Assembly: GCA_030407085.1 (NCBI GenBank)
Contig: CM059585.1
Span: forward strand, 120,447,001 to 120,511,000
Reading direction: 5' to 3'
Source of the DNA: Trichopria drosophilae
Taxonomy: Eukaryota > Arthropoda > Insecta > Hymenoptera > Diapriidae
DNA: 64,000 nt
The translations under genes and the position numbers were made by a program. Positions 7,190-64,000 of this stretch are shown here, piece by piece (the first letter of the stretch is position 1; each line of letters opens with the position of its first letter). Below the pieces are notes generated by a model, which saw only the letters and a program-made list of their open reading frames with translations, was not told the origin of the DNA and ran no database searches.

Positions 7190-8722
7190 TTATGCAATGA
7201 GTGCGTAACTTCACGCAATGCACGGGCCTCATACCATATCTTATGCACAGATATTCTATGCGTGAAGTAGCGAAATTCAGTGCGTGAAGTTTATGCGATT
7301 TTACGACGCTGCACGAGAGAAACTGCATTTTTGCCAATAGTAACCAATAGTGCCGTCATTTGCATGATTTCCAACAATGGTTGTAAGCCCTTGTTGAACG
7401 TACGGGCAGCACAGAAGGCTGCAATCACGATAATTTTTGAACGTATGTTTTTGAGCTAAGTTCCAAACACATTAATTGTAACTTTCATTACAATTTTGAA
7501 TGTCAGCCTCAAATCATCCGTCGTGAGGTCTTCATACACTTTTCTGAGCAGAGGTTAAATATCGTTGTCTAACGAGGGGGGATGGTTTGCTGTCTGTCGA
7601 GAATTTGTGGAAAAAAGTAGCCCTGGTAGCGTTTCTCATATTCTCCACAGAATCTGGACTTCTTCGCACGGCCAATTCATAGTAAGTCGATAACTCTTTC
7701 ATGACTTTATTAGTTAAAACATGGTTTTACGATTTTTTTCGCCGCAGATTTTCTTGATGATGAACTTGATGTTGTACTTGATTTTTTCTTATGTTCTTCT
7801 TCCAAATTCTGTACATCTACTCTTATTTTTTGTCTACATAATTTTCATAATAAACATCATATAAGCTTACAGATCTCTGAAACATTTTAATGACAGCATT
7901 TACTTCCATTAATACAGCACTACCCTCATGATTAATACTGCACGTTTCTTTACGTTCCTCGTACCAAACATCATACTCGACAGTATCTTTCTTGCCACTC
8001 CAAATCGAATATACAGCGCATACACTTGATTTTACAACATCATCAAGAACTTTTTCGATGTATTTTCCAATTAGAGTTGTCAAGACAATAAGAGCATAAA
8101 ATCCAAGTCGAGTCCAAGGGCCATCGTCAGAAACTGTGAGACGATTCATCACGGTACCAGTTTTCTCATTTTTTACTTTCCCTTCTTCGACTGTTTTTCG
8201 AAATACTGATTCCGTAACAGATTTTTCTGCTATCTGTATGTTGTCTATAATATAATATTTTTTGCCAAATCCTATGCAGATGTCCATGAAACCACAAAAA
8301 TTACAAATGCCTTGATATCCAACACCAATTAACCGCATTGCAAAAATGAGTCGACGATTTATTTCATACGTCTGTCCGATTTGCGGACTGCTTGGAATTC
8401 GATTTTCATTTTCACATTTACACTGCGCGACTAACTGAAATCCTAAATCTTTTTCAGTGCGTTTTAAAAATGTTATATCACTTTTGCATGTTATACATAT
8501 AAGAAGGTTTTGTGAAGTCAAAAACATAAAGAAGTTCACTATAATGTACTGAAGCATTGCATCGACGTTCACTTCAAAATCAGAATTATTTTTCGAAATT
8601 TTTCTAGCCGATATACTTGTGTTACTTGTATCCTGTTCACTCGTGTGCTGATTACCCGAAAATCTTCTTCTTTTTGAACGATCTGGTCTTGATTTGCTAT
8701 CTTTACAACTCTTTTTATCCAT
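7190..8722 (-). pseudogene. Mutator-like (Phantom-type) transposase, broken
   Basis: An ATG at 8722 opens a 299-codon frame that stops at 7823. It matches the insect Mutator-like transposase family: a basic N-terminus (KSCKDSKSRPDRSKRRR), a CxxC segment near residues 77-80, YEINRRLIFAMRLIGVG near 120-136, then the catalytic-core region DGPWTRLGF, TLIGKYIEKVLDDVVKSSVC and CSINHEGSAVLMEVNAV. Intact relatives continue for several hundred residues. Here a stop follows YENYVDKK. Remnants of the missing part lie downstream in broken frames between about 7290 and 7760, including STYYELAVRRSPDSVENMRN, ATFFHKFSTD, and IAAFCAARTFNKG. The element is therefore dead, with a premature stop, a probable internal deletion and frameshifts. 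I did not find matching terminal inverted repeats with confidence. Confidence 0.8.
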
Positions 8723-16505: not shown

Positions 16506-18980
<2,475 letters not shown>

Positions 18981-20620: not shown

Positions 20621-21738
20621 CGTTGATTTGGAATCATTATATTCTTTAAAATTATTTCACTCACTTAGACGAAACAATTGAATCAAACAGTTTCGGAGTA
20701 TTTTCAAAACAAATAAATTATTATTCTGAGAAATCGCCATGTTCGTCATAATTGTTGTTTTTGTGTATTGGAAGTATTTCATTAAAAAGTAACACGGAGA
20801 AAACATTCGAGCGGCTACTGCGTTAGTAAACAGAACAAAAATTTGATAAATCTAATCTTTGAAATATATGTCAATTTTTGATATATACTATTTCGGTGGA
20901 AACATTTCGCATTTTTTCTTCATTAGCAATCATCTAGTTTAAGAACAACATAGTAATATGATTATGATGGAATTCATTTGTCAAATCTTCATACCGGGAG
21001 CTTCAACTTTTTCAGTATTGAGTATTCGATATTGGAAATTGCACTTATCGATGTCAGAAGGTATGAATTATTTTGCCATCGCTAGGTCATTGATGTTGGT
21101 CAAAATTTCGGCACCTGGAATGCACGGACCAATTGTACTTTGGTACTATCGACACCGCTTCGAATTAAGGCGAATATTTGTCGTGGCCACTTGAATGCCA
21201 TTCCATCTAGACCAGAATGTCTCAATCAATAGGAGAGGCTGGATATCTTGATTACTTTGTCCTCCAATGCATTCAAAATTGTTGAATTTTAGTCATCACT
21301 GTTATCCAAGTTAATGCATTAACCTCATTGGGCATCAAAATCCCAATGAAGGATATGTTAGAAAACTTATTGGTCAATTTAAAACCCAGCATGATGGAAC
21401 AAATTTGACATCAGTCCTTACCATGTCATTTTCAAAAACTGGAAGATTGCTCATCCTCTTCATTTCGTATCACACAGGTGTTTAGTATAATTCGAAAGAT
21501 TGAACACACTCAATGCTTTTGTCACCGTCATTTCTCTCGCTTTAATATATTTTACATTTATATGTTACAGTTGGAATATTATAAATTCTGAAAAATGATC
21601 ATTGATGGTATTCGGGCCATTGTGAGTTTCTTAATAATACAGATGTAATCGTACATCCATGGCATTCCATTGTGTTTTTGACGATTAACTACACCAATTC
21701 AAATTTTTTTTCCAATTAAAAAATAAGTGACAATAGCC

Positions 21739-22454
21739 ATGTTCGGGGGGCTTCTTACTGCCATCGCTTATTTTTTAAATAGCGGTGAAGTAGCAAAGGC
21801 CGAGCGACGTCATGTATTGCCGCTAGAACATCAGGGACCTCCGATAATCATCCCCGGCATTCCACCACCGATTAATTCAACGACCATAACTCAGATTCTA
21901 CCTACTGAAACTCTACCTACAGCCTCAAAATCGTCAGACGCACTGGAAAGCCGCGTCACACCCGACAACACATTTAATCCGACACGCCATGTATCATCTT
22001 GGGACCGGTTACCGGAGTCAACGGTTATACCAACTGGGCTAGAGTTCGACGTAACCTATTCTATTGGAGGCAGAGCTCCGACATACAAGAACGCCGTCGA
22101 AATAGCAGTTGATAATGATGCGTTGGCAGACACTCCGATCGCAAAATCGGTGCAATATTTGCCCTATCTACGGAGATCGATATCTGTCGACAATATCAAT
22201 TCGCCGGGAATTGACAATCAACCATTCAAGAATAGCAAGAAAAGGAAGTACCCTCACATCTCTTTGCCGCTTATGACAATTACTTATGAAGAACAGATCC
22301 TGAAATATACATTGAAGCATTGAATGGGCATTTCGAGGATTGGTCAGACTACTACGGCGTACTCAGTGACGAAGATATCAACCAGTATTTGGAAGAAGAA
22401 AGAAGATCAATGCCGGAATACACGGAGCAACTGCCTGGGACAGAAGAAATGTGA
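21739..22454 (+). pseudogene. unrecognised membrane-anchored protein, left-arm copy, frameshifted
   Basis: This copy is almost identical to the intact one on the minus strand at 22857-23573. One base is missing near 22294, where the intact copy has two G (CAGGATCC) and this has one (CAGATCC). The frame shifts after the TYEEQ segment and stops at 22321-22323. The original stop, TGA at 22452-22454, is still present, so the loss is recent. A few substitutions relative to the other arm are visible (for example Pro/Leu after PGI, Ala/Thr before LADTP). Confidence 0.75.
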
Positions 22455-22856
22455 GGATTCTGGAAATCTCCACTTAATTTAATTTATTGTAAATTGTAAT
22501 CAGTGTGTTCTTTTAATAGTTTTATGATATTATTCTTTTATTGTATGTAATTACAATGTACTTCTCAATGTATTACTTTTATACGCTCTATGTAAACTCA
22601 AAAAATGTAAAAAAATGTATATAATCTATAAAATGTATAACCATCCCGTTCCCTTCTTTTTTTTTTTTTTTTAGCGTCACACAATTATATTCACAATTTA
22701 CCAAATTTGTTGAGCTTACATAGAGCGTATAAAAGTAATACATTGAGAAGCACATTGTAATTACATACAATAAAAGAATAATATCATAAAACTATTAAAA
22801 GAACACACTGATTATAATTTACAATAAATTAAATTAAGTGGAGATTTCCAGAATCC

Positions 22857-23573
22857 TCACATTTCTTCTGTCCCAGGCAGTTGCTCCGTGTATTCCGGCA
22901 TTGATCTTCTTTCTTCTTCCAAATACTGGTTGATATCTTCGTCACTGAGTACACCGTAGTAGTCTGACCAATCCTCGAAATGCCCATTCAATGCTTCAAT
23001 GTATATTTCAGGATCCTGTTCTTCATAAGTAATTGTCATAAGCGGCAAAGAGATGTGAGGGTACTTCCTTTTCTTGCTATTCTTCAATGGTTGATTGTCA
23101 ATTCCCGGCGAATTGATATTGTCGACAGATATCGATCTCCGTAGATAGGGCAAATATTGCACCGATTTTGCGATCGGAGTGTCTGCCAACGTATCATTAT
23201 CAACTGCTATTTCGACGGCGTTCTTGTATGTCGGAGCTCTGCCTCCAATAGAATAGGTTACGTCGAACTCTAGCCCAGTTGGTATAACCGTTGACTCCGG
23301 TAACCGGTCCCAAGATGATACATGGCGTGTCGGATTAAATGTGTTGTCGGGTGTGACGCGGCTTTCCAGTGCGTCTGACGATTTTGAGGCTGTAGGTAGA
23401 GTTTCAGTAGGTAGAATCTGAGTTATGGTCGTTGAATTAATCGGTGGTAGAATGCCGGGGATGATTATCGGAGGTCCCTGATGTTCTAGCGGCAATACAT
23501 GACGTCGCTCGGCCTTTGCTACTTCACCGCTATTTAAAAAATAAGCGATGGCAGTAAGAAGCCCCCCGAACAT
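22857..23573 (-). CDS. unrecognised 238-aa protein with N-terminal membrane segment
   Basis: The first ATG in this frame is at 23573; four sense codons precede it but lack an upstream ATG. The protein begins MFGGLLTAIAYFLNSGEV, a hydrophobic stretch suited to a signal anchor or signal peptide. Then comes a Pro/Ile/Thr-rich region (GPPIIIPG, then NSTTITQILPTETLPT), a middle region with SIGGRAPTYKNAVEIAVDN and YLPYLRRSISVDN, a basic patch (KNSKKRKYP), and an acidic C-terminus rich in Glu, Asp and Tyr (EDWSDYYGVLSDEDINQYLEEE). I do not recognise the family. The gene lies in the right arm of the inverted duplication and has a frameshifted twin in the left arm. The intact frame and near-identity suggest recent activity or duplication. 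A structural protein of a mobile or virus-like element is possible, but this is inference only. Confidence 0.6.
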   Translation of the reverse strand: MFGGLLTAIAYFLNSGEVAKAERRHVLPLEHQGPPIIIPGILPPINSTTITQILPTETLPTASKSSDALESRVTPDNTFNPTRHVSSWDRLPESTVIPTGLEFDVTYSIGGRAPTYKNAVEIAVDNDTLADTPIAKSVQYLPYLRRSISVDNINSPGIDNQPLKNSKKRKYPHISLPLMTITYEEQDPEIYIEALNGHFEDWSDYYGVLSDEDINQYLEEERRSMPEYTEQLPGTEEM

Positions 23574-24476
23574 GGCTATTGTCACTTATTTTTTAATTGG
23601 AAAAAAAATTTGAATTGGTGTAGTTAATCGTCAAATACACAATGGAATGCCATGGATGTACGATTACATCTGTATTATTAAGAAACTCACAATGGCCCGA
23701 ATACCATCAATGATCATTTTTCAGAATTTATAATATTCCAACTATAACATATAAATGTAAAATATATTAAAGCGAGAGAAATGACGGTGACAAAAGCATT
23801 GAGTGTGTTCAATCTTTCGAATTATACTAAACACCTGTGTGATACGAAATGAAGAGGATGAGCAATCTTCCAGTTTTTGAAAATGACATGGTAAGGAATG
23901 ATGTCAAATTTGTTCCATCATGCTGGGTTTTAAATTGACCAATAAGTTTTCTAACATATCCTTCATTGAGATTTTGATGCCCAATGAGGTTAATGCATTA
24001 ACTTGGATAACAGTGATGGCTAAAATTCAACAATTTTGAATGCATTGGAGGACAAAGTAATCAAGATATCCAGCCTCTCCTATTGATTGAGACATTCTGG
24101 TCTAGATGGAATGGCATTCAAGTGGCCACGACAAATATTCGCTTTAATTCGAAGCGGTGTCGATAGTACCAAAGTACAATTGGTCCGTGCATTCCAGGTG
24201 CCGAAATTTTGACCAACATCAATGACCAAGCGATGGCAAAATAATGCATACCTTCTGACATCGATAAGTGCAATTTCCAATATCGAATACTCAATACTGA
24301 AAAAGTTGAAGCTCCCGGTATGAAGATTTGACAAATGAATTCCATCATAATCATATTACTATGTTGTTCTTAAACATAGATGATTGCTAATGAAGAAAAA
24401 ATGCGAAATGTTTCCACCGAAATAGTATATATCAAAAATTGACATATATTTCAAAGATTAGATATATCAAATTTTA

Positions 24477-24868
24477 ATTACACGTAATTATTACGCATCT
24501 ACATTTGAAAAATATTTTCATATTTCAATAAATTTCGCAATTTTGCTCATTTTAGTGAGTATTATAATCATTCTTGTATTTTATTATCAAACACGTAAAA
24601 CTTCATCCAATTAAATACAGTCATTACTCTCGAATCGAATGCTATGTTCAACATCTTGCACATATGTTACATATAATATCAAACTTGAGCATAAATTTAA
24701 AATAGCAATATTGAAAAAAAAATAAAAACGGCGCACAGTGCCAGCAGCAGCACGCACGCTTGCCTTCTAGCATGGTAACACTTGTCGTGGACTTGGCATG
24801 GTTGCCGTGGCGGTAACAAAAGCTATAAGATTCGCAGAACAAGAACAGCCACAAATTTCGAGCAGCAG
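24477..24868. mobile_element. 392-bp segment present only in right arm
   Basis: Comparing arms, the left one passes directly from AATCTAATCTTTGA... to the outer block, while the right one carries 392 more bases between TATCAAATTTT and TTCTGTTTACTAACG. The extra piece contains GCAGCAGCACGCACGC and a G+C-richer stretch at 24730-24860. It is either an insertion in the right arm or a deletion in the left. No clear terminal repeats were found, so a deletion through microhomology is plausible. Confidence 0.6.
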
Positions 24869-25084
24869 TTCTGTTTACTAACGCAGTAGCCGCTCGAATG
24901 TTTTCTCCGTGTTACTTTTTAATGAAATACTTCCAATACACAGAAACAACAATTATGACGAACATGGCGATTTCTCAGAATAATAATTTATTTGTTTTGA
25001 AAATACTCCGAAACTGTTTGATTCAATTGTTTCGTCTAAGTGAGTGAAATAATTTTAAAGAATATAATGATTCCAATTCAACTA

Positions 25085-41554: not shown

Positions 41555-44299
41555 ATGAAGACCCCTACAGTGTCACTTCGGATTGCTATCCCTGAAAAAA
41601 ATACAACGAAAATGATGCAATTTGATCCACACATATCACTCCATGGCGCAAGTTTAATGGTCAGAGAAAAGTTAGCGGACGATACTCATATGGGGAGACC
41701 AGAAGATTATGGAATATTTTTGGCTGATGAGGATACCACAAAAGGACTATGGTTGGAACCAGGGAGAAGTGTGGATTACTACAAACTGTCAAACAGCGAT
41801 TTGCTGGAATATAGACGAAAGTTAAGAACTTTACGTGTTCGTATGTTGGATGGAACTGTGAAGACTATTTTAGTAGACGATAGTCAACCAGTAGCCAATC
41901 TAATGGTTATAATTTGCACAAAGATTGGAATTACGAATCACGATGAATATTCCCTTGTACGAGAATGCGTTGAGGAGGAGATTGAAAACCAAAAAACAGC
42001 AAATTTTGGTACCCTTACTCTTAGAAGACGGAAAGAAGAGAAAGAGCGCGATTCGAAAATGGATCAGTTAAGGAAGAAATTAAGGACGGATGATGAAGTC
42101 AATTGGATTGATCCTAGTAAAACCCTCCGAGAGCAAGGTATCGGTGAGTCAGAAGCAGTTTTATTACGAAGAAAATTCTTCTTCTCTGATCAAAATATTG
42201 ACAGTCGAGACCCCGTGCAGCTATCGCTCCTTTACGTTCAAGCCAGAGATGCTATTCTTGATGGTACCCATCCAGTAACCCAAGAGAAAGCTTGTATCTT
42301 CGCTGGAATTCAATGTCAAATTCAATTTGGTGACTACAGAGAGGACAGGCACAAAAGTGGATTCATAAACTTGAAAGAATTCTTACCACAATCCTACCAG
42401 AAAATAAAAGGTATCGAAAAGAAGATATTCTGTGAACATAAGAAACATATTTCTCGATCAGACTTGGACTCGAAAGTTTTGTACACCAAAACCGCCAGAT
42501 CTCTCAGTACCTATGGCGTAACATTTTATCTTGTAAAGGAAAAAGTCAAGGGCAAGAATAAATTAGTGCCTCGTCTGTTAGGTATCACCAAGGATTCTGT
42601 TTTACGATTGGATGAAAAAACAAAGGAAATCTTAAAGACTTGGCCTTTAACTACAGTCCGCCGATGGGGAGCATCGCCCAATACATTTACTCTTGACTTT
42701 GGTGATTATGCTGATCAATTTTACAGCGTACAGACAACTGAAGCCGAACAAATTTCCCAATTAATTGCAGGATATATAGACATCTACTTGAAAAAACAGC
42801 AGGCGAAGGATCACTTTGGAATTGAAGGAGAAGATGGGTTGACAATGGTCGAAGACAATGTGACACCTTCAAAAGCGACATATTTGCAACACGATGTTAG
42901 CAACACTGATAAGATGCATGTAGAAGAGGTATCTGTGGCAATTCCAGCAGTAATGCGTGCTGGTGAAGACCAACCGTATGAACGAAGGTACATGATGAGT
43001 TCCCAATATACAGCTACTGTCAGTGAACCAGTTAATACAATATATATACCTGAAACGACTCAAACGAAATTTTCTTTCATGGACGAATCACAGCATACTC
43101 TACGTTCGACAATTTCGACGTGTCATAACGTTATACATACGGCGGAATCAGATTTGTCCACTAAACCGCAATTACCCGAGCTAGGATCTGACAATGCATC
43201 CTTGAGGTGGATAGAACAGACTATAGATACTCACAAACAAAATGTCGGTTTTCAAATTGCTGCGATGAATGCAGCCACTGCTGAAGTAGTGACATTGATG
43301 TCAGAACCATACGATCGAGTAGACCATGCTTTATTAGATTCCGCCATCACTACAATTGCCACTAACCTGCCAGAAATGACTAAGGGAGTTCGGATGATAG
43401 CTGCTCTTGCAGAAGACGACACAAACGGTGAACGTCTCTTGGATGCCGCTAGGCAATTGTGTACAGCATTTTCGGATCTGCTCAGAGCGACAGATCCTGA
43501 AATAAAAGAACCCAGACAGAATTTCTTTTCAGCTGTATCATGCGTAAGTAAAGCTTCGCATCAGGTAATTACCAACGTAAGGGAAGAAGATGAATCATAT
43601 CGAGAAATTCGTCACACTTTGTTGACGTTGGCAAAGGGGATTGCCAGTACCACTGCTGCTCTAGTACTGAAAGTAAAGAACATTTCAAAACAAATGACCG
43701 ATCCAGCCAATCAAAGTAGAATATTATCATTGGCAGCTCACTGTGCTCTAACTACCTCGCAGCTGGTTGCATGTGCGAAAGTCGTAGCTCCTACTTTACA
43801 ATCACCAGCTTGCCAATCGCAGTTGACCAATGCAGTCCACGAAGTCACAAGAGCAGTCGAAAATCTCGTTCAAATGTATAACGAGGGTTGTGGGACTGAA
43901 GATACCGTACAAGATCTCAGTGCAGCAGCTACAGCTGTAGTTAAAACACTGAATGAACTTTTGCAGCATATGTTCGAATCCATCGGCCAGTTAAGGGCTA
44001 AAGAAACAATCCAAGAAGATACTATGGAAAGAAGATTATTGTCGACTGATCTCTGTTCAAGTGAGACCACAGAAAGAATACGGAAAAGAGTAGTCGAGAC
44101 CACTGCTGAGCAAAAAATTCAAAAGATTAAAAATAGAGCAGAAATACATACCGATGCCAGACAATGCAGTCGGTTGCTTGCAGCTACCAAAACTCTTGCT
44201 GATGCCACTGTGAAAATGATAGAAACAGCACACGAATGCCACACTACTACTCGTGAATTATCGTATAAGTTTAATTCATTCCGGGTGCATCAGATGTGA
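41555..44299 (+). CDS. truncated talin-like protein (FERM head + rod R1-R3), intronless
   Basis: One uninterrupted 914-codon frame starts at ATG 41555. It matches talin, the adaptor linking integrin tails to actin. The order is F0 (1-85), F1 (from LRTLRVRMLDGTVKTILVDD) with its basic loop (LRRRKEEKERDSK), F2 (from FFFSDQNIDSRDPVQL, near 206), and the PTB-like F3 (VKGKNKLVPRLLG to TVRRWGASPNTFTLDFGDY, which holds the integrin-contacting Trp). A linker of about 425-540 and helical-rod bundles follow (ASLRWIEQTIDTHKQN, NLPEMTKGVRMIAAL, EPRQNFF, RILSLAAHCALTTSQLVACA). It ends after ARQCSRLLAATKTLADATVK, close to the R3 end of animal talin (about 911). Full talins have about 2,500 residues, so R4-R13, the main actin-binding sites and the dimerisation helix are missing. 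An intact frame with no introns suggests a retained retrocopy. A 5'UTR acceptor may lie near 41320. AATAAA is at 44421. Confidence 0.92.
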   Translation: MKTPTVSLRIAIPEKNTTKMMQFDPHISLHGASLMVREKLADDTHMGRPEDYGIFLADEDTTKGLWLEPGRSVDYYKLSNSDLLEYRRKLRTLRVRMLDGTVKTILVDDSQPVANLMVIICTKIGITNHDEYSLVRECVEEEIENQKTANFGTLTLRRRKEEKERDSKMDQLRKKLRTDDEVNWIDPSKTLREQGIGESEAVLLRRKFFFSDQNIDSRDPVQLSLLYVQARDAILDGTHPVTQEKACIFAGIQCQIQFGDYREDRHKSGFINLKEFLPQSYQKIKGIEKKIFCEHKKHISRSDLDSKVLYTKTARSLSTYGVTFYLVKEKVKGKNKLVPRLLGITKDSVLRLDEKTKEILKTWPLTTVRRWGASPNTFTLDFGDYADQFYSVQTTEAEQISQLIAGYIDIYLKKQQAKDHFGIEGEDGLTMVEDNVTPSKATYLQHDVSNTDKMHVEEVSVAIPAVMRAGEDQPYERRYMMSSQYTATVSEPVNTIYIPETTQTKFSFMDESQHTLRSTISTCHNVIHTAESDLSTKPQLPELGSDNASLRWIEQTIDTHKQNVGFQIAAMNAATAEVVTLMSEPYDRVDHALLDSAITTIATNLPEMTKGVRMIAALAEDDTNGERLLDAARQLCTAFSDLLRATDPEIKEPRQNFFSAVSCVSKASHQVITNVREEDESYREIRHTLLTLAKGIASTTAALVLKVKNISKQMTDPANQSRILSLAAHCALTTSQLVACAKVVAPTLQSPACQSQLTNAVHEVTRAVENLVQMYNEGCGTEDTVQDLSAAATAVVKTLNELLQHMFESIGQLRAKETIQEDTMERRLLSTDLCSSETTERIRKRVVETTAEQKIQKIKNRAEIHTDARQCSRLLAATKTLADATVKMIETAHECHTTTRELSYKFNSFRVHQM

Positions 44300-44420: not shown

Positions 44421-44426
44421 AATAAA
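44421..44426 (+). terminator. poly(A) signal of talin-like gene
   Basis: AATAAA lies 122 bases after the stop. No poly(A) tract or target duplication that would date a retrotransposition event is visible nearby. Confidence 0.45.
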
Positions 44427-52064: not shown

Positions 52065-58709
<6,645 letters not shown>

Positions 58710-59734: not shown

Positions 59735-61690
59735 CCCGTTGTTCCGGGTTCTTCAATAATAGGAACGGATAGAAATGAATGTTATGATGAAATTGGAGGT
59801 GACGAGTCTTCGCAACAAATTTCATGTTCTCCATTGGAACAAGCGTACGATATAGGCTTATACATTCGTCGCGCTGGGTAAATGCAGAGGTCATTGATGA
59901 CGCAAAAAAAGAAGATGTATTTCGACACACCCCGCCTCTAATTTATAATTTTCCTGTTCAGCAGACTCAATCATTCACACGACATTTTCAACGTTCGTGG
60001 TTAATTAATTATTCATGGTTATCCCACTCGGATGTCGAAGAAGGATTATTTTGTAAAACTTGCGTTTTATTTTGGATGATTTTGGAACGGAAAGAATCTT
60101 ATCAACATGTCAATCAATTCGTAAAATCTAATTTTACAAATTGGAAAAAGCTATCGAATGTTTTGCCAATCACCCACAACTTAAGTATCATGAAGATGCA
60201 TCTGCTGCAGCTGAATGTTTTTTATCGGTATTTGATTCACAGACTTATGATGTATGATTACAAATTAACATAAATGCTCAACAAAAAACAATCTGAAGAA
60301 AACAGAAAGAAATTGCATACAATTATCAAATTTTGTGGTAGGCAGGAATTGTCACTTCAAGGTCTTGTTGATAGCGGATGATGAGTAACCTTGGAAGACC
60401 CTTCATTTAACGATGGAAATTTTCGAGCTTTATTAAGATTTCGCGCTAAAAGTGGTGACGAGATATAATTGAAAACCCATCTACTACATTCAGGTAACAA
60501 TGTAATGTATACAAGTCCGATTGGTGAAGAAATTACTTCACAAATTATTAACCGTGCGAACAAATCTCGTTTCTTCACCGTCCTTGCGGATGAAACAACG
60601 GACATTAGTCGTATTGAATAATTTTCATTATGTATTCGTTACGTAGATTTGGATTTATGCGTTGTAGGTGAACATTTTTTGGAATTCGTACCTGTATTTT
60701 ATGTTTCCGGAAGTGGACTGGCGGAGGTACTGAAAACTCGGTTTAAACTTGAGTAATTTTGGAGTATGATGGGGCTGCTGCAATGAAAGGCGAATTTAAC
60801 GGAGTACAACCAAATGTTCGAATAGAGTTTCCGAAAGCAGTACCCATTGTGCTTCTCACTGCCTCAATTTATGCCTCAGTGACGCATGCAGCGTTGATTC
60901 CATACTAATTCATTATGATTCCATAGAAATGCATTTGGCGTTATTTCCGAAGTGTACATTTTTTCGTGCATCGGCTCGGCGAAGTGCGATTGTATCACAG
61001 GGATTAGAAACCTCTAAGTCTAAAGAAGTATTCTGAAACTAGGTGGATTGAGAGACACGATGCCGTTGCACTGTTCTACGAGTCTATAATCGAAACAATT
61101 CAGGCCCTGGAAGATTTGATTGAGTCTAAAGTTGCCTTTTGTTGCATGACGGATGCTGAGTTTCACTCATGCATTCTCAAGAAATTTGCAGTCATTTAAT
61201 ACCGATTTGTGTGGCACTTTAACTTTAGTTGATATAATATCGACAAAAATTTCGGAAATTCATAAGAATGCCGAAACTGAATTTGGTAAAATTTACACGC
61301 AAGTTTACACTCTTGCTTGTTTATTTGGAGTCGAACATATATGGCCCGAATAACAGGAACCCAGTGCCATCGATGTAAAAATCCTTCGAACTCCATTGAA
61401 GAGTACTATTTGCGAGCTGTTTTTCTTCCTTTTACTGTCTATCTTTTTCAGTCGTTGAATGATCGTTTTCTTCAACATAAAGAACATGTTAACGGATTAC
61501 AAAAGCTGATTCCAGCAGTACTTGTAAAAGAAATTGAGAAAATAGAATTCGCAGATTTGAAACCCACCATCAAGTTCTATCAGCAGGATTCTGTTAAATA
61601 AAGAAGATTCGAAATATGGCAAATTAAATGGATGAAATCTCAAGAGAAAAAGAAGAATCTACCATCTTCAGCTATAGAAGCATTGAAACA
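59735..61690 (+). pseudogene. hAT-derived ZMYM1-type transposase, broken
   Basis: Plus-strand frames with frequent shifts and stops match the family of TTF-type zinc finger/hAT proteins such as ZMYM1. Landmarks in order are DIGLYIRRAG (59850), FPVQQTQSFTRHFQRSWL, SWLSHSDVEEGLFCKTCVLF (60010-60080, the finger region), KSNFTNWKKL, a degraded ELSLQG with NFRALLRFRAKSGDE (60350-60470), SRFFTVLADETTDISRIE (60560-60620, the catalytic Asp region), LCIRYVDLDLCVVGEHFLEF, then DIISTKISEIHKNAETEFGK and YLFQSLNDRFLQH near the C-terminal half. The most C-terminal dimerisation region is missing. It abuts a LINE at about 61700. Confidence 0.72.
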
Positions 61691-61702
61691 CTGTGATGTC
61701 AA

Positions 61703-64000
61703 TTATTAGTAGATTGGTAAGATGATCCGAGGTTGACCTGAATTGCCTAATACCGCTTTGATGTTCCAAGAACCATTTCTCATCTTCCAGAGCCCACTTT
61801 AGTCTCCGATTTATTATTTTCTCAAGTATTTTACCCATGTTATATGTTAAAGCTATTGGTCGATAATTTTCAGGCTTTGAGTGATCTTTTCCTTGTTTCG
61901 CAATTGGGATAACAGCTACACTCCAACTCTCCGGAAATGTACGCGAATTCCATATAAAATTGTAAAGTTTTAGCATATACTTGAGACTGTGATTACTAAG
62001 GTTTTTTATTAGAATATTAGGTATACCGTCTGGTCCGGGACTTGAATTACCACAAGTAGAAAGAGCATATTTAAGCTCTTCCGTAGACAAATTAGAGTTA
62101 ATGTCTGTTGTTATTTTCTTGTTTATTCTTGTAGGTTTGTAGGGTTCATCGATATCGTTAGTTTTGCTTTCAGTTTCATCAGCATAGTATTCCGTTTCGA
62201 TTTTTTTTTATACGTTAAAAATTCTAACTGGAAATTTGAATCACTAGAGTTAGCAGCGAAAGTCGTTGCAAATAGGTTCGCCTTATCCGATTGGTTGGTG
62301 ATAGTTTCTTCATAATCGTTTATGAGTACTCGGGAAAAGTTTCCTTTTTTCTGTCTTTTCCGTATTCTTATATTTTTCCAAGAGCTTTCTTCGTGAAATG
62401 TGCTTTAAATGTAGGAATATTTCGATTTGCAGCTTCGGCAAGAGCGTTATTTAGCCTGCTTACCGATTCATCGATTGATTGCGTGGTAACTTCAGGGTCA
62501 TCCAGTTCGTCTATTAGTTTTTCAAAGAGAGTTTTATATCATTTCCAGTGTGCTTTTTTAAAATTCCACGAGGGTTTTATTTGGTTGGAGGAAGAAGATT
62601 CTACTCCTGAAAATTCTTCTTGGTCTCTTGGGAAATTGATGTGCACTGGGATATGGTCGCTATTATAGAGATATGGGTCGACGTACTATTCTATATCAGA
62701 GGCAAGATCGGCTGAGCATATCGATAAGTCAATCGAACTGAAGTTTCCTCTAGCCGAATAGAAATGGGTGGGAGTATTATTATTTAGTAGAATTAGATGC
62801 TCGTCGTCTAACCATTTTTCAATAGTTTTTCCGTGATTACATGTTTTTGTCGAAGGATTACCCCGTAGAGAGCTGCGGCTATTAAAGCCACCGATGACTA
62901 CAAACGGTTTCGGAAGTTGCAGAATAAGATCAAGAATATCTTGGAGGTGTAGTTCTTGACTATTTGGGATATAAACGTTGCAGATAGTAGTTTTCTGAGG
63001 CATTCTTACTCTAACTGCTATTGCTTCCAAACTCGTCTTTAAAGGGATTTCGTCGTAAGGAATATTCTCTTTGATATAGATTGCTACACCTCGCTCGCTC
63101 TATCGCATTCAGCTCTGATTTTGCAAAAGTCATCTTATCTTAACTTATTTCCTGCTTGTTTCTTAAAATTTGTTTCTTGAAAACAAAATATATCAGGATT
63201 GTTTTTTTATCGGCTCTGCCTACCACTTTTAATAAGAGCCCATAAAATTTATATTTATTGAAGAAATCAAGCCTATCTTAAATCCCTATTTATATCAGGA
63301 TTGTATTTATTTTGGAGCATTTTTATAAATGGAAAACGAACTTTAAATCCATTTAGGTTCCATTGAATTAGATGCATGGTTTTGTGGAAAATACGTTGAA
63401 GGATTTTATTGTGTAAGTGGTGAAGAGACTAAACTAACCGCTATTAGAATTCCGCACTTCTTGAATTTTTTCGTCATCGGTAATATGGGGGAGGGGGATA
63501 GCTTGAATTTCGATTTCGTTTAGTTGAAGATTATTTTCTAACTCGATTCTGTGCATTATTCTAGTGAAACGGTTTTTCATTCCACGTGAGATTAGGAGGG
63601 GGTTTGATTAGAATTGATTTCAAATTCTTCCGCAATTTCTTTCAAACTTTGTTTATCTTTACTTTTTTCAATAAAATTAACCAGCTGGGTCATTTGAAGT
63701 GGGTATGTTTCAGAGTGCGCGTTCAGTTCTTCTACAGGTATCAATTGAGACATCAAATCTACTATTTCTTCTTCAAATTTTTTTCTCTTTGTTTTAGGTT
63801 TCCGTTTTTTTTTCAGCATCTTCATTTGAGTTTTCTTCAGAGTTGTCTGTTTCATGCTCGTTTAGATCCTGAATGAACTGGGTAGAGTCGGTTTGTGGCG
63901 ATATTGATGGAGATATCGGGCGTTTGGTTACGTTAGGTGGTGGACGAAGGGAAGGGCAATATTTTAATGGGGCATTTCAGTAATATTTACAGGGGAAATA
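61703..64000 (-). pseudogene. Jockey-type LINE: ORF1 remnant, endonuclease, N-terminal RT (runs off right edge)
   Basis: Read from the right edge on the minus strand. A Lys/Glu-rich ORF1-like piece is at 63855-63592, with an ORF1 C-terminal piece near 63560-63440. The endonuclease starts at about 63380 (QWNLNGFKVRFPFIKML, then FCFQETNFKK) and continues with NVYIPNSQELHLQDIL, PFVVIGGFNSRSSL (Gly where the family has Asp in GDFN), FSSIDLSIC and NSDHIPVHINF (62650). The RT begins at about 62090: STCGNSSPGPDGIPNILIKN, YRPIALTYNMGKILEKIINR, FLEHQSGIRQFRSTSDHLTN, ending near 61705 where sequence passes into the antisense hAT relic. Stops and shifts break it, and the 3' half of the RT is absent. It has lost its 3' end, the opposite of normal LINE truncation. 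Confidence 0.82.

Follow-up and report, generated by a model that had tools for sequence, protein, structure and literature searches.

In the genome of Trichopria drosophilae we identified a short talin copy, encoded by a single intron-free frame of 914 codons, which is best explained as a retrogene for the talin head plus rod bundles R1-R2 that lacks the autoinhibitory and actin-binding rod and is kept by selection; we put the probability of this reading at about 0.72. The coding sequence occupies positions 41555-44299 (+ strand) of the window, by which we mean the whole stretch of 64,000 nucleotides that was analysed. It runs from ATG to TGA without an internal stop, and because the other two forward frames are interrupted by 64 and 63 stops, its openness is not due to chance. 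Pfam matches comprise FERM_f0, FERM_N/RA_2 (the RA_2 match lying slightly below its curated cut-off), FERM_M, IRS (F3), Talin_middle, IBS2B, R4-like and VBS2, and phmmer aligned residues 8-894 of the copy with the talin-1 chain of 6r9t over its residues 4-876 (E 2.2e-252). Both searches agree with the sequence-only reading, which had claimed a single 914-codon frame with FERM subdomains and rod sequence at this place, and the poly(A) signal that it had noted 122 bases past the stop is likewise there (AATAAA, 44421-44426, + strand). The domain order is F0-F1-F2-F3-linker-R1-R2 and part of R3, followed by the stop, with recognisable talin homology ending at residue 894 (phmmer) or 898 (BLASTP). 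The copy has the F0-F1-F2-F3 FERM head of full talin. It does not have the 13-bundle rod with the C-terminal actin-binding R13 and dimerisation helix, the frame stopping within R3 and no such parts being found elsewhere in the window.

Selection has been strongest on F1-F3, weaker on F0 and R1-R2 and weakest on R3. Overall, the copy matches the hymenopteran consensus at 643 of 895 residues (72%). By domain (all on the + strand) the figures are 66% (57/86) for F0 (residues 7-88, 41573-41818), 89% (105/118) for F1 (residues 89-206, 41819-42172), 86% (95/110) for F2 (residues 207-316, 42173-42502), 92% (88/96) for the PTB-like F3 (residues 317-412, 42503-42790), 57/94 for the linker (residues 413-507, 42791-43075), 71% (117/165) for R1 (residues 508-672, 43076-43570), 63% (82/131) for R2 (residues 673-803, 43571-43963) and 44% (42/95) for a degenerate R3 (residues 804-894, 43964-44236), after which comes a divergent C-terminal tail (residues 895-914) with the stop (44237-44299). 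After allowing for site variability (site entropy), the z values are +3.3 for F1, +2.4 for F2, -1.6 for R2 and -4.7 for R3. At sites invariant in 33 arthropod talins the copy keeps 288 of 319 residues, compared with 355 of 576 at the remaining sites (Fisher p 9e-22), codon mutability being equal in the two classes; in the head, 191 of 200 invariant sites are retained. The other 31 invariant sites carry changes, I411Y, S429L and C775Y among them. In neutral simulations of the frame, 19% amino-acid change brought 11 stops and 34% brought 20, against none in the copy, and the frame stayed open in 0 of 100 runs at 0.05 or more substitutions per site. Because invariant sites are preferentially kept and no internal stop has arisen, the copy is, judging by the residue pattern rather than by dN/dS, under long purifying selection at the protein level. 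The earlier proposal that selection has kept the frame open is borne out by these comparisons.

The residues by which the talin head contacts integrin and membrane are largely unchanged. The equivalents of talin-1 K256 and K272 (in F2), K316, K324, L325, R358 and W359 are all present, and 33 of 36 head positions equal those of Vespa talin, the exceptions (in talin-1 numbering) being Y377, which is Phe, A389, which is Ser, and K404, which is Gln. As a whole, the F2-F3 integrin- and membrane-binding residues are those of talin, with Phe for Y377. In F3 the copy retains L337, G343 and R370, which correspond to fly L334, G340 and R367, together with W371 (talin-1 W359). According to PMC4230843, mutations of these three fly residues disrupt integrin activation, clustering or binding, two of them abolishing integrin binding or activation and the third being needed for clustering. 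Binding to integrin tails, as had been proposed from the sequence, would be in keeping with this retention of F2-F3 contacts and fly residues. F0 has diverged further. In mice, three Rap1 contacts of talin were mutated, as described in PMC9198492, and R30 is among them. Its equivalent in the copy is Leu; among the 32 panel talins that have a residue at this position, it is Arg or Lys in 31.

The position of the stop, about talin-1 residue 896 by colinear extension, would lie inside the last R3 helix. Taking R3 of vertebrate talin to end near 911, the stop falls about 15 residues short of that end; the earlier placement of the stop at the R3 boundary is thus right in that the frame ends within R3, and wrong in that it ends before the boundary and leaves a bundle that is not intact. 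Within R3, the copy retains 14 of 22 invariant sites, compared with 22/22 to 22/25 in eight leave-one-out control talins, each excluded from its own panel and four of them about equally diverged overall (73-75%). In other terms it has lost 8 of 22 such sites, where the controls have lost 0-3 of 22-25, and 4 alignment columns are deleted, compared with 0-2. The R3 z of the controls ranges from -1.6 to +1.6 against -4.7 in the copy, although this value alone is not decisive, because in one control a different domain falls short almost as far (F0 of Copidosoma, z -4.1). R3 is relaxed rather than free, since inside it the invariant sites have still been retained at a somewhat higher rate (14/22) than the others (28/73; p 0.05). 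AlphaFold models, of modest quality, show no separate second helix in R3 of the copy (pLDDT blocks 36-76 over residues 811-900), whereas the Plutella control has four helices (blocks 56-86). F3 confidence is low in the copy and in this control alike, and the F3 values are uninformative about the copy. The site losses relative to controls, and with modest confidence the AlphaFold contrast, indicate that the copy has no intact R3 mechanosensor bundle.

In talin, R3 binds RIAM and contains a vinculin site. The R1 helix that we take to be the first vinculin-binding site, and the R2 helices, are near the parental type, whereas the R3 helix that presumably holds a vinculin-binding site has been rewritten. 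The suggestion of vinculin or RIAM sites in an intact R1-R3 is not supported in view of this decay, and the functional unit of the copy is likely to be the head plus R1-R2.

Several lines of evidence point to a spliced hymenopteran talin transcript as the source. A protein search that scored 7992 candidates (lengths restricted to 0.55-1.75 times the query) yielded 192 matches, the top one a Xylocopa talin at 69% identity over 98% of the copy; identity to four hymenopteran talins (Xylocopa, Vespa, Halictus and Diprion) is 68.5-71%, up to about residue 904. Among the best 120 of the 192 matches there was neither a closer short talin over the whole copy nor an annotated ortholog; two head-only predicted proteins (P0041 and P0043) match about half of it at 70-71% identity. 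The linker carries a two-residue insert that is common to the panel's aculeate, ichneumonoid, cynipoid and chalcid talins and to Orussus and Cephus, and that is missing in the tenthredinoid sawflies Athalia and Diprion and in non-hymenopterans, Daphnia having two unlike residues. We rejected the insert as a mark of Apocrita; because Cephus and Orussus carry it too, it excludes only tenthredinoid sawflies.

Hymenopteran talins have alternative segments at about residues 474-501 and/or a microexon of 11-12 residues at about 654 (position 708 in one isoform with a longer N-terminus). The isoforms of all six species compared (P0126, P0131-P0134, P0137, P0149, P0235, P0239, P0250, P0258, P0268, P0272, P0279 and P0282), which are hymenopterans other than the copy's own species and stand in for its parent gene, expose parental introns at about residues 473, 501 and/or 654, and the copy has none of these. 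The microexon (PFYI...) occurs in five of the six species and the alternative linker segment in three. In the copy the linker segment is in and the microexon is out, and the frame reads through the two linker junctions (~42970 and ~43057, + strand) and the microexon position in R1 (~43510, + strand), all of which are fused without an intron. Because it reads without introns across splice points that isoforms mark, the copy derives from a spliced transcript, and by its sequence it is a processed copy of a hymenopteran talin. With the stop within R3, this agrees with the earlier description of an intronless, 3'-truncated processed copy. Retroposed copies mostly lose the 5' end and keep the 3' end; here it is the reverse, the 5' part being kept. 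Poly(A) tracts and target-site duplications of retrocopies fade with age. We found no poly(A) tract downstream of the copy, the only run of at least 8 A between 1.5 kb upstream and 2.5 kb downstream lying 1.3 kb before the ATG, and no direct repeat longer than 10 bases between the 1.2 kb upstream and the 1.5 kb downstream. We infer retroposition from a full talin located elsewhere in the genome, of which the copy would be a paralog.

The copy is also not recent. Its terminal branch measures 0.66 (34 rows), 0.85 (31 rows) or 0.53 (33 rows, R3 left out) changes per column, while those of most hymenopteran talins measure 0-0.26 and those of Copidosoma and Trichogramma 0.45-0.54. Without R3 it is not longer than that of Copidosoma talin (0.53 and 0.54). 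Because of this difference from most hymenopteran talins, it was not copied recently from an ordinary talin. The earlier judgement that it is not very recent holds on branch length and consensus identity (72%), and this low identity makes near-identity to the parent unlikely. In the all-column tree, placements with Cynipoidea, Ichneumonoidea, Chalcidoidea and Aculeata are all not rejected. The R3-less tree groups the copy with chalcids (95/88), in the presence of two long chalcid branches, and neither ichneumonoids (p 0.29) nor aculeates (p 0.21) are rejected as alternative placements.

We searched the window for further talin segments by tblastn with the talins of Xylocopa, Vespa, Halictus, Diprion, Timema and Plutella and found none. 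The rod of the copy itself gave weak matches to other rod repeats (E 0.004-0.012), and at two other places of the window there were three short matches (E 7.6-9.7). Exons that would complete a normal talin, the finding by which the sequence-only reading would have fallen, were not found in the 19.7 kb of the window downstream of the copy. The region holds other features. Exon-like ORFs of trypsin fold flank the copy on the same strand (18034-18333, +, and 55796-56077, +; PF00089, E 1.6e-10 and 4.7e-12), suggesting that serine protease genes surround it. A Mutator-like transposase ORF lies at 7823-8722 (-; PF20700, E 1.5e-21), and pieces of non-LTR retrotransposons lie at 53651-53956 (+), 61671-62207 (-) and 62689-63099 (-), two as reverse transcriptase-like matches below the curated cut-off and one as an endonuclease-reverse transcriptase match. 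Elements of this kind could have been the source of reverse transcriptase for the copy. A large, near-perfect palindrome occupies 20704-25000. It has 1360-base arms with 99% complementarity, and further pairs of 328 bases (inner) and 133 bases (outer); ORFs for one and the same protein, 198 and 242 aa long and without a Pfam match, lie on its two sides. Elsewhere in the assembly, positions 1-10000 of contig C1 (218.7 Mb) read as bacterial DNA with long ORFs, which by eye resemble purC, purM, rnhB, mraY and an IS transposase of a Wolbachia-like bacterium; by the same eye judgement, this start would be either DNA transferred recently or an endosymbiont contig that scaffolding has joined to the chromosome.

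Three other explanations were weighed. The frame may be the 5' giant exon of the sole talin gene, with its first-half introns lost (for example by cDNA recombination) and splicing near 44253 to exons beyond the window. Homology does fade near a GT donor-like site (C/GTGAAT, 44252/44253, + strand), full talins can be nearly as diverged as the copy at 72% (Copidosoma 74%, Trichogramma 75.5%, Chironomus and Daphnia 72%), and fast talins occur among the chalcids with which the R3-less tree groups it. However, no talin exon follows in the 19.7 kb downstream, and the R3 losses, at invariant sites and in columns alike, exceed those of all controls, whereas an essential single talin should retain R3; we consider this explanation unlikely. 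Slightly less probable again is that a retrocopy once under selection is now decaying without function. The decay of R3 and the 31 changes at otherwise invariant sites would be expected of such a copy, but 914 codons without an internal stop, a frame that holds to its end, and F1-F3 subdomains that keep 86-92% of the consensus and nearly all invariant head sites would not.

It is highly improbable that the copy was retroposed very recently from a diverged parental talin of the same species and evolves neutrally. Although fast-evolving talins occur in Hymenoptera, the parent itself would then need the R3 damage, and the eight lost R3 sites are invariant in all 33 panel arthropod talins, 24 of the rows being hymenopteran.

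We therefore return to the selected retrogene and propose the following course. A spliced hymenopteran talin mRNA that included the linker segment and skipped the microexon would have been reverse-transcribed, and the cDNA inserted in a region with transposon pieces and trypsin-fold exons on both sides. The copy, without everything past R3, has been kept open for long by selection on its protein, as the residue pattern shows. The autoinhibitory bundle of talin is named R9, and R9, ABS2, ABS3 and the dimerisation helix are all located beyond R3. The product would be soluble and monomeric, binding the membrane and the integrin beta tail through its F2-F3 faces and so activating or occupying integrins. 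Without R9 it would not be autoinhibited, and without ABS2, ABS3 and the dimerisation helix its coupling to actin would be weak, by way of the head site and vinculin bound to R1-R2. Accounts of full talin describe an autoinhibitory bundle, ABS2, ABS3 and a dimerisation helix (PMC8697387, PMC6032930). Most likely, then, the gene specifies a head-R1-R2 protein that is not autoinhibited, couples weakly to actin and binds both membrane and integrin tails. It could be a constantly open activator of integrins, or it could compete with full talin and thereby reduce the force that full talin transmits. Retrogenes are often germline-expressed, and activity in restricted tissues is probable.

Compared with talin itself (rhea in insects, TLN1/TLN2 in vertebrates), the copy shares the F0-F3 head, the linker and R1-R2 in order and sequence, as well as the integrin- and membrane-binding residues, but is without R4-R13, ABS2/ABS3, the R9 autoinhibitory bundle, the dimerisation helix and introns, and its R3 is degenerate. 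Kindlins (fermitins) also have a FERM head with F3, but their F2 carries a PH insert and they lack a talin rod; their phmmer matches to the copy are weaker (E ~1e-20), and the copy is far closer to talin. The head that calpain releases from talin-1 comprises about residues 1-433. It is a rodless, integrin-activating head, and the copy likewise appears to keep a head, but one that is genome-encoded and followed by R1-R2. Fly talin head activates integrin in cultured cells, as reported in PMC4230843. HAPSTR2 is reported as a functional retrogene and is, like the short talin, a processed copy kept by selection; the short talin differs by its 3' truncation, through which a defined half of the protein, the mechanical one, is missing. 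The review PMC6032930 states that invertebrates carry one talin gene only, in which case the copy would be a second one, if the full talin exists. Among the open-access papers listed, judged by titles and the start of abstracts, we found no prior report of a talin retrogene. An article touching on parasitoid, venom and talin (PMC8314478) has talin as an abbreviation and in a reference, passages that do not tell of its role.

Talin unites integrin activation and force transmission in one molecule. A short talin that has long been kept, with the head preserved and the mechanosensitive part lost, would be a natural separation-of-function experiment on which half is selectable alone, and it would provide a native, non-autoinhibited head-R1-R2 for comparison with engineered constructs. 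We tentatively suggest that a hymenopteran lineage has split talin, with the full talin serving force and the head-R1-R2 gene serving as a force-independent integrin activator or decoy. If so, the head-R1-R2 protein would be stable and beyond autoinhibition, having lost the R3 mechanosensor along with the rod's sites for actin, and it would perhaps be used in gametes, in blood cells or in secretions that act on host cell adhesion.
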